Both the position numbers and the translations under genes were made by a program. A DNA stretch of 6,391 nucleotides from a bacterium (lineage in GTDB: Bacteria > CSSED10-310 > JAJRTK01): NCBI GenBank assembly GCA_024278345.1, contig JAJRTK010000301.1, positions 1-6,391 on the forward strand, in the 5' to 3' direction. The notes beneath the pieces were generated by a model that did no database searches, was not told where the DNA came from, and saw only the letters and a list, made by a program, of their open reading frames with translations. The stretch's first letter is position 1. The number at the start of each line of letters is the position of its first letter. Shown one piece after another: positions 785-6,362 of the stretch.

Positions 785-3754
785 ATGAGCGTTCAATTCA
801 TGGTGATGCTCGGCTTTTTGGCCGCGTTTGTCGGGCTGGTTTGGCGCCTTTTTAAGGGGCGCAAGCCGGGGCTCTGGTTAAGGCGCGGGAGCCGGCTTTC
901 TTTTGCTGCCGTTCTGGTGACCGCGATCTGGCCCGCCGTCGTGATTTGTTGGACCATGCTGGAGCTGGAGTGGGAAGATCGGGCGATTTTGCGCGTGGCG
1001 CAAACCGGATACCGGATCCGGATGGATGGGCGGGAGCCCGGTTCCAAGAGCATCACCGTGGGGGGGAACCGGTCGCGGCGGGACCTGGCGCCCGGAGAGC
1101 GCCTTGATGATCTGTTCATCAACCGGCTGCCCGGTGGCTTTTTGAAGATTGCGGTCGCGGAGTCGGGCTTTCGGGTCACGTTGCGGAAGGCCGGCTTCCT
1201 GGCGGAGGCTGAGGAGGAACCAGAGGAAGGAGATTCTCTCCCGCATCCGGGAGCCTTATTTGCCATCAACGGGAAGCGGAAAAATGTTCACCGGCTCCAG
1301 GCCGGCTCGCTGCTTCTTGTGAAGATGGCCGATGGCGGTGAGCTGGGGTTTACTCTCGATCCGGGTGGGCCGCTCCGAGCCGCTGCGCTGGTGGCTCCGG
1401 GAGGCGTGCGCCTCGAGCTTTCCAAGAGTCCCGCGCGGTTGCCGATGATCGACTGGAGACTTCCGGTTTCCAGGCCATTCACCGAAGGAGAACGGGTCGA
1501 TCACCTTGGAGACCTCCTGGCCAGGGCCTCAAAGCAGTCGGGCCGTGCTCCGCCTCCCGGGCTGGCAAGCTTCGTTTTCGCCACTCGCTCCTTTCCTTGG
1601 TTTGACTTTTCCGTGGCACTTCTTGATCCCGAGGTGCGGGTGAGGGAAGGTGGCCGGATTGTGGGTGCGAAGACGGAATTCACGGTTCCGGAGATTCGCG
1701 GCCTGGATTTTTGGCAAAGTTCAGGAGGCGCCGGGAGGCGGGGAGGCCTCCGCCCACTGACCGGGCTCGGGCAGGTGCGGATCGCCAACAACTCCTTCGA
1801 GATCGATTTTAGAAAGCCTCGTCGGGTCACCGTGGAGCACCGGTTCGACGGAGGAGCAGTGGCGACGTTTTGGCTGGCGGCGTACGAGCCGCCTCCGAAC
1901 ACCGACAGCCTCTGGATCCGGGGTCACAGCCAGCGCTTTGAAAACGCCGGAGCACACCTTCGCTTGACGCCGCCTCCAAGGTTGGCTCGCCGGTTGGTTT
2001 CCGCCATCGATGAATGGCTAGCCTGGGCGGGTTTGCTGGAGTCGGCCTCCCAGGGCGATCAGTCCGGATCATGGGCGATGGAGCTTGTGGAGGGAAGGGG
2101 TCGGAGCCAGATTGCGTCGTCGGAGCGGTTCGAGCTGGGCCGGGATTACGCCGTTTTTACGAGCGTGGAGATCGTGGAATTGCCGTTGGGGGTGATCGCC
2201 TGGATCTTGGTTCTATGCATGTTCCAGTGGATCATGATGCGGGAAACGGCGGTGGACGGGTTCCAGGTTGTGTTGGTGTCGGTGGTGAACGTCTTCTTGG
2301 GGTTCCGGTTGTTGGTTGCGTTCAAGGCGGTGTTGGTGCGTCCCTTCCACGAGGAAGGCTATGAGCTGGCTCTGTTCGCTCTCTTTTTCGTGCCTGCGTG
2401 GGTGATCGTGATGCGGGATCTTTGGCACGGTGTCCGCCGTGTTCGCGGGGAGTGGCTTCTTGGCCAGGCCCGCCGGAGGCTCTGGTGCGTGGGGCTCTTT
2501 TTGGCCTGTTTGGGGTACTGGACTCTTGGGCGTTATGGGGTGGGGGCGCGGTTGTTCCTTGTGGGACTCTCGTTGTTGCCCGCGATGTTATTTGAGGTGG
2601 CTCGTTTTTTTGCGGCGCCTTCGCGGGGTGGCCGGAGCGTGGGCGGGCGGTGGATGGTGTGGCTCCGGGATCTTGATGGCGGTGCCGTCAGAACGGTGCT
2701 TTGGGCATTGGCGGCCTGCGGGCTGGTGCGGATGGCCTTTTGGTTCTTGGGATTTCGAGAATCGGTGCGCCTTGGCGGGCGGCTTGCGTTCGAAATGTTC
2801 TACACGCCGGTCATCGCGCTGTTGGGCGGGCTGGCCTGTGGGCTTATCATCGAGCATTTCTGTCGGGCCTTCTACGAGCCTCACCTTTTGGAGCGTTGGG
2901 ATTTGGGATCTTTTCTTCGCCGCCGCACGCCTTTGAGGCTAGGGATTTTGTACGGCGTATTGCTTTTGAGCCTTGGAGGGATCGGCGCCCTGGTGAGTGA
3001 TTTGGGGATGCTGGTTCCCAACGGACTGGGAGTGCTTTTGGTGGCCGGAAGCACGGGCGTTTTTTTTCTTGTCTTCCTTGTAGGCCGCCGTGGCTATGGC
3101 CTGTTGAAGGGGGTTGCCGCCCTGGGCGCCCTGGGGCTTGTGATCCTCTTTTTGTTCCCCTGGATCTTGCTGGGCTGGGGATCGACCTCGGATGGGGATT
3201 CCGTGAGCTATGATCGGAACCGGCTGCGGCTCATGGCCTATTTCGACCCGGAGCGGGTGGCGGATTTGGGAACGCGTTCGGCGCAGGAGATCTTGGAGGT
3301 CCGGCGCCGCCTGGATGCCTATGCTTCCATCAAGGAACCGCGTTATCTGGGTGCTCCGATGCCCATGTCCCGGCCGGAGGATCTCAATGACCAGGTGGCG
3401 GCGATCTATATTCTGGCCGATTTTGGGCCGGTGGGCGGTTTCTTTTTGCTCTGGTGCTTGTTGCTCCTGGCGGCGGTTCCCTTTTGGGACGAGGGGCTTG
3501 CCGAAGCCGGCCGCGCAGGGCCCGGGGAACGCGCCGTGGCTCCCAGACTTGTGGCGGCGGCTTGCCTTGGGTCCATGAGTGCCACCGGCATGTACATGCT
3601 GGCCGCCAACGTCGGGATTGTACCGCTGACGGGAAAGAGTATTTACCTCTTGGGAATCAACTCCCTGTCAGACTTGGTGACGACGAGCCTCTTGCTTGGC
3701 ATAGCAGTTCTTGCCTTGGAGATGCAGCGATGGATCGACGGTCTCTCACGATAG
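785..3754 (+). CDS. Divergent SEDS-family (FtsW/RodA/SpoVE-like) glycosyltransferase with a large extracytoplasmic N-terminal domain
   Basis: SEDS proteins polymerise lipid II into peptidoglycan in the membrane. From ATG 785 the product is 989 residues; typical members have about 370-450. Residue numbers here count from the in-frame GTG at 749 (subtract 12). Two membrane segments (about 17-34 and 50-70) precede a soluble beta-rich region (73-475), followed by about 13 membrane segments (476-990), the last ten matching the SEDS core in number. Arg/Lys-rich loops at 35-50, 556-577, 619-646, 702-729 and 779-788 fit cytoplasmic faces and put 73-475 outside. The large outer loop (810-892) has RNRLRLMAYFDPER, then PEDLND with D881 at the catalytic Asp position of the family's PExHTD motif, then ADFGPVGGF. 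Near the end, NVGIVPLTGKSIYLLGINSLSD matches the conserved N-G-P-TG-S block in spacing. SEDS membership is near certain; the pathway is not. The gene overlaps the downstream transpeptidase by 25 nt. Confidence 0.87.
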   Translation: MSVQFMVMLGFLAAFVGLVWRLFKGRKPGLWLRRGSRLSFAAVLVTAIWPAVVICWTMLELEWEDRAILRVAQTGYRIRMDGREPGSKSITVGGNRSRRDLAPGERLDDLFINRLPGGFLKIAVAESGFRVTLRKAGFLAEAEEEPEEGDSLPHPGALFAINGKRKNVHRLQAGSLLLVKMADGGELGFTLDPGGPLRAAALVAPGGVRLELSKSPARLPMIDWRLPVSRPFTEGERVDHLGDLLARASKQSGRAPPPGLASFVFATRSFPWFDFSVALLDPEVRVREGGRIVGAKTEFTVPEIRGLDFWQSSGGAGRRGGLRPLTGLGQVRIANNSFEIDFRKPRRVTVEHRFDGGAVATFWLAAYEPPPNTDSLWIRGHSQRFENAGAHLRLTPPPRLARRLVSAIDEWLAWAGLLESASQGDQSGSWAMELVEGRGRSQIASSERFELGRDYAVFTSVEIVELPLGVIAWILVLCMFQWIMMRETAVDGFQVVLVSVVNVFLGFRLLVAFKAVLVRPFHEEGYELALFALFFVPAWVIVMRDLWHGVRRVRGEWLLGQARRRLWCVGLFLACLGYWTLGRYGVGARLFLVGLSLLPAMLFEVARFFAAPSRGGRSVGGRWMVWLRDLDGGAVRTVLWALAACGLVRMAFWFLGFRESVRLGGRLAFEMFYTPVIALLGGLACGLIIEHFCRAFYEPHLLERWDLGSFLRRRTPLRLGILYGVLLLSLGGIGALVSDLGMLVPNGLGVLLVAGSTGVFFLVFLVGRRGYGLLKGVAALGALGLVILFLFPWILLGWGSTSDGDSVSYDRNRLRLMAYFDPERVADLGTRSAQEILEVRRRLDAYASIKEPRYLGAPMPMSRPEDLNDQVAAIYILADFGPVGGFFLLWCLLLLAAVPFWDEGLAEAGRAGPGERAVAPRLVAAACLGSMSATGMYMLAANVGIVPLTGKSIYLLGINSLSDLVTTSLLLGIAVLALEMQRWIDGLSR
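3718..3721 (+). promoter_or_regulatory. Ribosome binding site of the transpeptidase gene, inside the SEDS gene
   Basis: GGAG lies 8 nt before ATG 3730. It sets the start of the second gene at 3730, although its frame is open back to an ATG at 3454. Translation from 3454 would put an arginine-rich, low-quality sequence in front of the N-terminal membrane anchor. Confidence 0.8.
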
Positions 3755-6132
3755 TGGCGCCCGCCTTATTGGGGCTGCTGGCGACCGGCGCGGTCATTGG
3801 CGCCTCAATACTGAGCCTCTCCGAAAAGGTGCCAAGCCCCTTCTATCCCCATTCGTACAACCAGAAGGTCAATGCCTGGCTCGAAAGTGGGCTCCTCACC
3901 ATTGAGCGGGGCAAGGGCCGGTTCGTGGCGAGCGTTTCCGACGAAAAACTTAGTGCCGAAGAAAAGGCCTGGCTCGGCCTCAGCTTTCTCCCGTCGGATA
4001 TCCGCCGGTTCAATGGGGATCCCGGCAAGGGGATCCCACCTTCTCGCGGCATTTTCCTCCAGAGGGAAGGCCAGTGGAAGATCAACCCCTACCAACATCT
4101 TTCGGCACCTTTCAGTTTCCTCCGGCGCCGGTGGACAGGCGGCATATGGTTTCGCGCCCCCGCTGTGGGCGCGGCTCTTTGGAGCGACGAACGGACCATC
4201 GTTTTTGCACGCCCCGAACCCGGCGAGTTGCCGATCAAGCCAGGACGATATGCCATCCTCGATCTGGCGGCTTCCGCTCCCGGCGCCGCTCCCGGTGCCG
4301 CTCCCGCCGTCTTGACCTGCAAGGGGTTGGCCGTGACCTATGGCGACAGGACGCGGAACCTGGCCGAGTTCTTCTTTTTGGGGGACGACGTGGTGATCAA
4401 TGTCCGGGACGAGCGGCTTCAAGTCTGGTTGGAGGGGCAGCGTCTCCGAATAGGGCAGATGGCGGTCCTTCGGGATGGTGACCGCCTGCTCTTCGAGAAG
4501 CCTGCCGCTAATCAGCGGCCCGTCGTCCAGGCTTTCCTTTTCCGCCAGACCACCGCGGGTGCCACGGCGGCTTCGGTGACCGGATCTTTGTCGGCGATCC
4601 AGCTCATCAACGGGCGCCAGGAGCGCCACAGCCGAGCCGCCCAGCTCGATTTCGCACCCACCCTCGCAAGTGCCATTGAGAAGCTATACAGCCAGCAGAC
4701 CACAGCCAACGAAAAACTTGATGTCTACTTGACTCTGGACGAATCCCTTCATGTCAATCTCACCCGAGGCCTCACCGATTGGATGCGGACACGGCGCTTG
4801 ACGAAGGCCGCCGGCGTGACACTCCTCGATCTGCGCACCGGCGAGCTTCTTGCCCTGGCGAGTTATCCGTCGCCTGCTCTGGCTGAGCGCCTGGCAAAAA
4901 CCAAGCGTCGTCGTCGCCAACTTCGCAGGAACCACAACTTCCATCTTCATCCCATCGGTTCCGCGGGCAAAGTTTTTTTGGCTACCGCGGCCCTGTCGGC
5001 CCGGCCTGAGATTGCGACTTTGGAGCGTCGCTGCCACCCCAGCACCCACGATTTCCGCCATGTCCTGGATATCGAGCTGCCAACGAACCTTGTGAAGGAA
5101 GGCGATGGGTTTATCGCCAACCCGCCCGCCATCTGCCGCGGCAGTCAATGGTTTGGTTTTTTGCCTTTCTTGACCTCCTCCTCCAATGCCTACATGGTCG
5201 ATCTCTTCACCCTGAGCCTCAGTGGGGCACTGGAAGGCGCCCAGTGCAGAAAGAGAGCGCCGGACAAGAATTGCCGTTGGCGGATCCGGACGGAGCGGGG
5301 ACTGGCGTACTATGACGAAGGCTTCGATCACAGTCTATATCTGACGCCGGAGCGACTGAATGTCATCGGCCTGGAGGGCCTTCCCACTTTCCGTGAGCTT
5401 CGGCGGATCTTTGGCATCCGGACAAGCCTGGTCCTGGACGGGGTGGATCCGGGTTACGACCTGCGCCTTTGGAAGCCCCTCACCGACCGCATCCTCACGG
5501 GGGAGCAGCGGCCCATCTCCCTCTACAGCGACGAAGTCACCCCGGAGCGAGTCAACCTTCGGGCCAACACCATCCAAAACCTTCGGCAGGACTACGTTTC
5601 TTTCCTCCTGGGTGGCGCGGCGAACGAATGGACTAACGTCCAACTGGCGGAGGCTCTGGCTCGCCTGGCCATGAACCGGCCCGTGGAAGCCCAGCTTGTG
5701 CATCGCCTGGAAGTGGATGGCCGTGTGATTGAGAATCCAAAACTGGTGGAGAACGCCCGGCCCACGGCACCTCTCATTGCCCCGGATATTCGGAGTTTGG
5801 TCCTTAGAGGGATGCATGCAGTGGTCCAAAAAGGCACCGCAAAAAAGGCGTTTGGCCCCAAGGGACTGAAGACGGTGGAAAGGGTTTTGCCGGGAAATGG
5901 CGCCACTCTCCGGCTCTACGGCAAGACTGGCACACTGAAGGACAAGAAACGGCCCACGTCGGTCTTCCTTTTCATCCTGGCCGCCGAAAAGAAGGGAGAG
6001 ATCCTGGGAGGCATCTCCGGTGCTATCTACATCGACAGCCCTAACGGCGGCGCTTTCGCCGCTTTCTTGGCTCGCCATTTGCTAGAAAAGGTCGTCCGCC
6101 CCTACCTCAAAGCCGCGAAATTCGTCCGCTAG
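3730..6132 (+). CDS. Class B-type penicillin-binding protein (peptidoglycan transpeptidase) with extended N-terminal region
   Basis: This 800-residue protein should cross-link peptidoglycan stem peptides outside the membrane. It has a short cytoplasmic MDRRS, one membrane anchor (about 7-29), an N-terminal region (30-325) and a transpeptidase domain (about 330-795). All catalytic motifs are present: SAGK (Ser411 nucleophile, Lys414), SSN (484-486) and KTG (732-734, followed by T). LDVYLTLDESLH (330-341), GVTLLDLRTGELLALASYP (362-380), FGIRTSL (561-567) and WTNVQLAEAL (634-643) fit standard family positions. No GT51 transglycosylase domain is present, so it is monofunctional. Residues 211-256 (ending RDGDRLLF) resemble the last strands of an FHA-like beta sandwich, behind an Ala-Pro-Gly linker (183-193). 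Paired cysteines at 435/469 and 506/515 could form disulfides. The gene overlaps the SEDS gene, its likely polymerase partner. The rod (PBP2) or divisome (FtsI) subtype cannot be decided. Confidence 0.9.
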   Translation: MDRRSLTIVAPALLGLLATGAVIGASILSLSEKVPSPFYPHSYNQKVNAWLESGLLTIERGKGRFVASVSDEKLSAEEKAWLGLSFLPSDIRRFNGDPGKGIPPSRGIFLQREGQWKINPYQHLSAPFSFLRRRWTGGIWFRAPAVGAALWSDERTIVFARPEPGELPIKPGRYAILDLAASAPGAAPGAAPAVLTCKGLAVTYGDRTRNLAEFFFLGDDVVINVRDERLQVWLEGQRLRIGQMAVLRDGDRLLFEKPAANQRPVVQAFLFRQTTAGATAASVTGSLSAIQLINGRQERHSRAAQLDFAPTLASAIEKLYSQQTTANEKLDVYLTLDESLHVNLTRGLTDWMRTRRLTKAAGVTLLDLRTGELLALASYPSPALAERLAKTKRRRRQLRRNHNFHLHPIGSAGKVFLATAALSARPEIATLERRCHPSTHDFRHVLDIELPTNLVKEGDGFIANPPAICRGSQWFGFLPFLTSSSNAYMVDLFTLSLSGALEGAQCRKRAPDKNCRWRIRTERGLAYYDEGFDHSLYLTPERLNVIGLEGLPTFRELRRIFGIRTSLVLDGVDPGYDLRLWKPLTDRILTGEQRPISLYSDEVTPERVNLRANTIQNLRQDYVSFLLGGAANEWTNVQLAEALARLAMNRPVEAQLVHRLEVDGRVIENPKLVENARPTAPLIAPDIRSLVLRGMHAVVQKGTAKKAFGPKGLKTVERVLPGNGATLRLYGKTGTLKDKKRPTSVFLFILAAEKKGEILGGISGAIYIDSPNGGAFAAFLARHLLEKVVRPYLKAAKFVR
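4276..4308 (+). repeat. Ala-Pro-Gly coding microrepeat (flexible linker in the PBP)
   Basis: A 12-bp near-repeat of the type GCTCCCGG(C/T)GCC encodes APGAAPGAAPA, residues 183-193 of the transpeptidase. It reads as a flexible linker between two parts of the extracytoplasmic N-terminal region. In-frame repeats of this kind can change length by slippage, so linker length may vary between strains. Confidence 0.7.
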
Positions 6133-6136
6133 CCCC

Positions 6137-6294
6137 ATGAAACAACCGCTCTTCGAAAATTCCCTCTTTTTTCTTCGGGCTGTCTTCCGCTCCCATCGGC
6201 GGCCATCCGGCCACCGCTGTCCGCCATCTTCGCCCCGCTCTTCATCAGCCAGCCCACCATCGACTGGCTCTATCCGGTCGATACCGGAGCGGGC
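6137..6294 (+). pseudogene. Possible start of a third gene, apparently frameshifted and cut off by a repeat
   Basis: ATG 6137, 4 nt after the PBP stop, opens with MKQPLFENSLFF and runs 76 codons in its own frame, but soon becomes Ser/Pro/Arg-rich and implausible. From about 6190 the frame one base back (the PBP frame) looks far more like protein: it contains PLSAIFAPLFISQPTIDWLY, and about 32 of 38 third positions are G or C against about 22 of 34 in the first frame. The frames would join at or after the six-T run at 6167-6172. A frameshift relic, a sequencing indel in the T-run, or chance are all possible. The better frame enters the dispersed repeat at 6295. No family is recognised. Confidence 0.3.
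6273..6288. other. 6-bp stem hairpin downstream of the PBP gene
   Basis: TCCGGT and ACCGGA pair perfectly around CGAT. No T-run follows, so it is not a typical intrinsic terminator. It abuts the right copy of the dispersed repeat and may be part of it. An imperfect GC-rich hairpin also lies at 6197-6216. Confidence 0.4.
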
Positions 6295-6362
6295 ATCCAC
6301 GCAAGGCGGGACGGAACAGGAAAAAAAGGAAAATGTGGTGCCGGGCGCAGCGAGATGCCAAG
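6295..6362 (-). repeat. Right copy of the dispersed repeat (inverted, compact)
   Basis: Read on the minus strand, this contains the same three blocks in the same order as the left copy: CTTGGCATC plus a GC stretch ending GCGCC (6362-6344, 16 of 19 identical), CCACATTTT (6338-6330) and GTCCCGCCTTGCGTGGAT (6312-6295, 18 of 18 identical). An A/G-rich stretch separates the last two blocks here (plus strand), and its T/C-rich counterpart does so in the left copy. The two copies bracket the SEDS-PBP pair as an interrupted inverted repeat about 6 kb apart. No transposase lies between them, so a scattered non-autonomous repeat family is more likely than a composite transposon. Confidence 0.6.

Follow-up and report, generated by a model that had tools for sequence, protein, structure and literature searches.

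A divergent SEDS-like protein and its partner transpeptidase look like members of an FHA-bearing group of SEDS/PBP pairs

SEDS/PBP pairs in which both proteins carry large outside-facing domains, apparently related to FHA domains, were seen in two little-known bacterial phyla, and they are a real, recurrent variant of the SEDS-PBP pair. The window analysed here, which is a whole 6391-bp contig (C227) of a draft genome, carries a gene pair that looks like a diverged member of this FHA-bearing group and that probably makes cell wall like the FtsW/RodA-PBP machines. It is the most diverged example seen in the analysis and, because of this, the weakest single piece of evidence, and the pairs on contig C96 of the same genome and in L050 are better subjects for experiments.

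RESULTS

The contig and its gene pair

The source genome is a draft of 550 contigs and 6.06 Mb, with a completeness of 88% and an estimated contamination of 2.1%, and its phylum is represented by eight genomes in the compared set. Two long genes lie on the + strand of the window (Table 1), the first encoding a SEDS-like protein of 989 aa and the second a transpeptidase (PBP) of 800 aa, and they overlap by 25 bp. The base composition of the first frame is coding-like (GC1/2/3 = 0.65/0.48/0.72). The fragmented state of the draft and its estimated contamination would allow the contig to be a binning contaminant or an assembly artefact, but we consider this very improbable. Its tetranucleotide usage correlates with that of the genome's own contigs at r 0.85-0.94 against at most 0.76 with others, and a 78-bp repeat in an intergenic part of the window recurs in about 40 copies across the genome; on these two grounds contamination was rejected, and the intactness of both frames argues against an artefact.

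The repeat (268-345) is about 70-78 bp long, and its roughly 40 long copies in the source genome are 84-97% identical. An inverted stretch of 45 bp at 6291-6333 is 80% similar to it, and the gene pair is thus flanked by inverted repeat copies. Upstream of the longer repeat, at 35-117, we also noticed three tandem 23-bp units of the GGGTCACGTTTGCGTGACTCGAA type with an internal palindrome, GTCACGtttGCGTGAC.

Table 1. Features of the gene pair in the window (residue numbers refer to the protein encoded)
Feature	Position	Strand	Basis
SEDS-like protein, 989 aa, start ATG 785	785..3754	+	single open frame; 15 hydrophobic helices; remote SEDS profile match at residues 811-984
Two N-terminal membrane helices (residues 1-19, 38-56) and K/R-rich cytoplasmic loop	785..952	+	hydropathy, charge
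Predicted extracytoplasmic domain, residues 57-460 (404 hydrophilic residues)	953..2164	+	topology prediction
Return membrane helix, residues 461-479	2165..2221	+	hydropathy
SEDS-like membrane core, residues 495-978	2267..3718	+	hydropathy
SDLGM at the position of the SEDS (Q)PDLG motif, residues 738-742	2996..3010	+	sequence inspection; HMM alignment
Long extracytoplasmic loop, residues 796-879, with YDRNRLRLMAYFDPE and presumed catalytic Asp869 (codon 3389-3391)	3170..3421	+	hhalign: LND on HTD of FtsW
Loop ANVGIVPLTGKSIYLLGIN, residues 941-959, aligned with the SEDS P-x-TG loop	3605..3661	+	HMM and profile-profile alignments
Partner transpeptidase (PBP), 800 aa	3730..6132	+	one N-terminal helix (12-30); SAGK 411, SSN 484, KTG 732
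FHA-like stretch of the PBP immediately preceding the transpeptidase, residues ~232-287	4423..4590	+	FHA likeness by sequence inspection

Topology of the SEDS-like protein

Hydropathy gave 15 helices in the 989-aa protein, namely 1-19, 38-56 and 461-479 together with 12 in the core (495-978). The loop joining the first two helices contains seven K/R and no D/E, and most of the short core loops assigned to the inside are also rich in K/R; on account of these inside loops residues 57-460 are predicted to lie outside, as is the long loop 796-879, and the charge rule supports this placement. The earlier note had described two extra N-terminal helices which deliver a domain of about 400 residues to the outside of the membrane, on the side of the catalytic loop, and its coordinates, the layout (two helices followed by 404 residues) and the sidedness were borne out by the hydropathy and the K/R charge of the loops. 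Its ten-helix core, on the other hand, has to be corrected, as 13 helices follow the domain by hydropathy (the return helix and 12 more), giving 15 in total and not 12. The ten-helix layout of a SEDS core, with its long loop between helices 7 and 8, may be accommodated by the hydropathy, with an additional helix pair, and the long loop itself is present. The core helix pair 568-608 apparently occurs also in the Myxococcota-titled relatives, the helices being assigned by inspection of hydropathy.

The membrane core

The 989-aa protein was matched by no Pfam model at E<=10, by no NCBIfam model at E<=1 and by nothing in a PDB sequence search, and an HMM built from the SEDS proteins of its own phylum gave it -15.5 bits. 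In profile-profile comparison it reached a score of 31.75 against SEDS, which was attained by one of 400 block shuffles preserving its local composition; six unrelated polytopic reading frames scored at most 23.6. With a broader SEDS profile the alignment was unchanged and collinear, but the real score was exceeded by 4 of 200 shuffles, and a profile made from the FHA-SEDS cores alone matched the window core no better than it matched shuffles. A count of conserved SEDS columns (MAFFT --add --keeplength) gave 13/27 and was discarded, since shuffles scored as high; a MAFFT alignment of the protein with the relatives was clearly off in the core.

The profile-profile alignment places residues 811-984 on the second half of SEDS. 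In the hhalign alignment Asp869, within LND, falls on the aspartate of the FtsW HTD, which in E. coli FtsW is D297, the putative catalytic residue (PMC8765783), and PLTG falls on the SEDS P-x-TG loop. DLG, RxRLxxxFDP, the loop Asp869 and PLTG are all collinear with SEDS. After PLTG the protein reads GINSLSD, a degraded form of the SYGGSS motif, and nothing in it can be recognised as the QPSE-K stretch of SEDS, so that catalysis by the window core may be impaired. Compared with the SEDS family (PF01098: FtsW, RodA, SpoVE), the core thus carries DLG, RxR..F.P, the loop Asp and P-x-TG in an identical order, and its gene overlaps that of a class B-type PBP; it differs in giving no profile match, in the degraded SYGGSS, in having five more helices by hydropathy and in the 404-residue outside domain. 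We consider the protein very probably SEDS kin and refrain from listing it as an established member. The kinship is accepted because of the motif order and the gene neighbourhood, the sequence profile match being marginal by itself. The earlier designation as a SEDS polymerase agrees with the motif order and the partner gene, but no SEDS model recognises the core, and the protein is not simply an ordinary SEDS protein to which a domain has been joined.

Relatives with the same layout

An outside domain in front of a membrane core is met again in a clear SEDS protein of the source genome, and also in a second phylum. Contig C96 of the source genome encodes a clear SEDS protein of 1001 aa (68 bits) with an outside domain of about 458 residues, the start of which is FHA-like (14.6 bits, sub-threshold), and its gene overlaps that of a 1133-aa PBP in which the transpeptidase domain is clear. 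Its best relatives are found in another phylum, whose genomes are large and were deposited as MAGs of Myxococcota or Deltaproteobacteria, and they align with it over the whole length, ectodomain included, at 32% identity. In one of these, the Deltaproteobacteria MAG locus L050, the SEDS gene (3673-7089, 1138 aa) overlaps the PBP gene (6978-11720, 1580 aa). All five second-phylum genomes examined contained an FHA-type SEDS and all five an FHA-type PBP, the two genes being on different contigs in four of them. Among 386 genomes across Bacteria, full-length FHA-SEDS relatives were observed only in this second phylum and in the window's genome, and three further genomes matched the FHA-SEDS core only.

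With the FHA-bearing SEDS proteins (the C96 paralogue, L045/L051, L046/L052, L050 and L053) the window protein shares an N-terminal helix, a long outside domain, a return helix, a SEDS core, a similar length and an FHA-PBP partner. In the relatives, however, the SEDS core can still be recognised (Pfam 29-68 bits), as can the FHA domain to varying degrees; the window protein has kept neither in recognisable form, and it possesses one more N-terminal helix. No close homologue of it was found in 60 relatives, in the five second-phylum genomes or in the genome-contig scan, and a pairwise comparison of the window and C96 ectodomains gave no signal. The source genome has ordinary SEDS genes too, for FtsW within a dcw cluster and for RodA beside a PBP (contig C103), which makes both of its FHA-type pairs additional to the ordinary loci.

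Several other loci were noted in this survey. Downstream of the C96 pair (L005, 8367-13388) lie genes for proteins of 672 and 999 aa without Pfam matches, the latter of which reads as a chain of FHA-like repeats, and upstream (796-1842) lies a gene for a Lon-protease-domain protein. The SEDS proteins of 509-530 aa at L047 (9258-10847) and L048 (10425-11951), also found in G373:C22, have the cores next closest to the FHA-SEDS family, and a neighbouring protein within L047 seems to contain an FHA domain. The FHA-PBP matches in G134:C151 and G270:C382 (L074, L075) were flagged with one in-frame TGA each.

The outside domain

In the relatives, the ectodomain following the first helix matched Pfam FHA at 24.2 and 21.9 bits in two proteins (cut-off 20.7) and below the threshold, at 14.6-20.1 bits, in three others. 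An AlphaFold model of the relative L053, made from five sequences, was of low confidence as a whole (mean pLDDT 44) and partly confident only in its beta-rich ectodomain, with some blocks near 80. When this model (mean pLDDT 44) was searched with VIA-align the top rows were all FHA, the best being 3gqs_A (Z 10.0, 99 aligned, rmsd 3.0), and with Foldseek the top match was 9qks_H, a type VII secretion core unit, at E 0.0099. Together the Pfam matches and the VIA-align comparison indicate that the ectodomain of the relatives is FHA-type. In classical FHA domains GR, SxxH and N residues bind phosphothreonine. On inspection some relatives keep these residues, L051 for instance reading GR...ASTEH...NRS.

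The window ectodomain itself had no Pfam FHA match, and a single-sequence AlphaFold prediction of residues 57-465 was unusable (pLDDT 32). The family model finds its best local match in the window protein at residues 39-107, with the helix and the beginning of the FHA domain in register, and the relatives' FHA start lines up in register with residues 70-102. The FHA-region model scored 0.9 bits on the protein, a value that was equalled in at least 12 of 2000 full shuffles and in 5 of 1000 block shuffles (about 0.5%). From this register we regard an FHA-like origin of the window ectodomain as likely and unproven. The phosphothreonine residues GR and SxxH are absent from it, VGGNRSRRDL being present and SxxH missing, and because they are not kept, the proposed docking is probably not phosphate-dependent in the window protein; judged by its sequence, the protein is unlikely to bind phosphate.

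The partner transpeptidase

The window PBP keeps all three transpeptidase motifs (SxxK/SxN/KTG). Its best NCBIfam match is pbp2_mrdA (PBP2) at E 1.5e-8, and the Pfam transpeptidase model gave 18.1 bits, under the cut-off of 22.1. It resembles the class B PBPs (PBP2/FtsI) in this best match, in the single N-terminal helix and in the three motifs, and differs from them in that no pedestal model was found and an FHA-like segment precedes the transpeptidase instead. No Pfam match to the PBP_dimer pedestal domain was obtained in the window, C96 or L050 PBPs. By blastp the window and C96 PBPs are 29% identical over 185 aa, starting from the FHA-like segment (residues 232-404; 38.9 bits, against 31.6 for the best of 2000 shuffles), and the C96 and L050 PBPs match at 119 bits. 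The FHA-like sequence of the partner PBP, like the FHA-type character of the domain in the relatives and the strong divergence of the core, had not been foreseen by the earlier note.

DISCUSSION

Weighing the alternatives

The main rival to a working polymerase, owing to the loss of SYGGSS, is that the window core is a dead scaffold, i.e. a degenerate, non-catalytic SEDS relative which serves as membrane scaffold for the transpeptidase, in contrast to canonical FtsW and RodA, which polymerise. The C96 paralogue and the relatives keep SSGGTSL where the window protein has lost SYGGSS and its QPSE-K is unrecognisable, the window protein scores below every profile, and the genome encodes ordinary SEDS proteins as well. 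Against this, Asp869, RxRLxxxFDP, DLG and PLTG are all present and the partner PBP retains its catalytic triad, and we regard the scaffold as unlikely. Still less probable, in our estimate, is that the protein is another GT-C-type membrane enzyme, like an O-antigen ligase or polymerase, that lies beside the PBP gene by chance. The marginal SEDS-profile evidence and the resemblance of SEDS proteins to O-antigen ligases (PMC8765783) would permit it, but no O-antigen ligase/polymerase model in Pfam matches the protein at E<=10, the SEDS alignment is collinear across several motifs, and the neighbourhood is like that of two real SEDS-PBP operons.

As to the outside domain, it might have nothing to do with FHA and be a beta-rich domain for regulation or wall binding, for example a stand-in for activators of the FtsQLB/MreC type. 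The missing FHA profile match, an FHA-region score that about 0.5% of shuffles equal and the failed structure prediction (pLDDT 32) fit such a domain, but the family model has its best local match precisely where helix and FHA domain begin, in register, and the window operon is related to FHA-bearing operons through its PBP; an unrelated domain is accordingly the doubtful choice of the two. Our preferred reading, to which we give slightly more credence than doubt, is that the window encodes an accessory wall-synthesis pair of SEDS-bPBP type, belonging to the FHA-bearing subfamily, in which FHA-like ectodomains dock the polymerase to the transpeptidase. Evidence on the other side is that no family profile places the window protein with SEDS or FHA, that SYGGSS is degraded, and that the two genes are on different contigs in four of the five second-phylum genomes.

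Proposed mechanism

In this accessory pair the membrane core would polymerise lipid II through Asp869, and the ectodomain, presumably a diverged array of FHA-like sandwiches, would dock on the FHA-like part of the PBP, at the place of the canonical class B PBP pedestal. In FtsWI the SEDS loop ECL4 contacts the PBP pedestal (PMC8765783). Docking of FHA-like domains outside the membrane would replace this contact, would couple and switch on polymerisation and cross-linking, and may thereby serve a specialised, additional wall-synthesis task. Binding of the partner PBP, which had earlier been listed among the possible roles of the domain, is the proposal favoured here, as an inference. More tentatively, and with rather more doubt than confidence, we suggest that SEDS-bPBP machines include one more type, whose polymerase and transpeptidase each bear FHA-fold domains and are coupled by them on the outer side of the membrane, where FtsWI and RodA-PBP2 use the pedestal-loop contact; in those relatives that keep the phosphothreonine-binding residues the contact might even be phosphate-dependent in the periplasm.

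Comparison with known systems

A link between FHA domains and this machinery has a precedent in Actinobacteria, in which FHA proteins are genetically linked to RodA/PbpA in the cluster fhaA, fhaB, rodA, pbpA, pknA, pknB (PMC3989709). FHA domains are linked to RodA and a PBP there as they are here; in the actinobacterial cluster, however, the FHA domains belong to separate proteins with ties to phosphorylation by kinases, whereas here the domains reside in both enzymes, on the predicted outside of the membrane. Natural SEDS-PBP fusions also exist (PMC10449877), and they have in common with the present pairs a physical coupling of the two activities, but here two separate proteins with added ectodomains are involved. 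Such a fusion occurs in the window's own phylum, in G003, as a protein of 1218 aa (L031, 4600-8256) with a SEDS core (residues 268-559) and a transpeptidase domain (residues 833-1192). No SEDS protein with an outside FHA domain is described in the open-access papers searched, and in this literature the architecture did not turn up as an already described SEDS subfamily, the finding by which the earlier note would have been refuted.

Significance

How a SEDS protein is activated by its PBP partner is a central question of cell-wall biology, the contact being known from no other pairs than those of the FtsWI and RodA-PBP2 type. A lineage with matching outside domains on both partners amounts to a natural experiment on SEDS-PBP coupling. 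FHA domains are known as cytoplasmic phosphothreonine readers, and to find them outside the membrane, on wall enzymes, leads one to ask what their ligand is there. The window pair, for its part, suggests that SEDS/PBP pairs can diverge past detection by current profiles.
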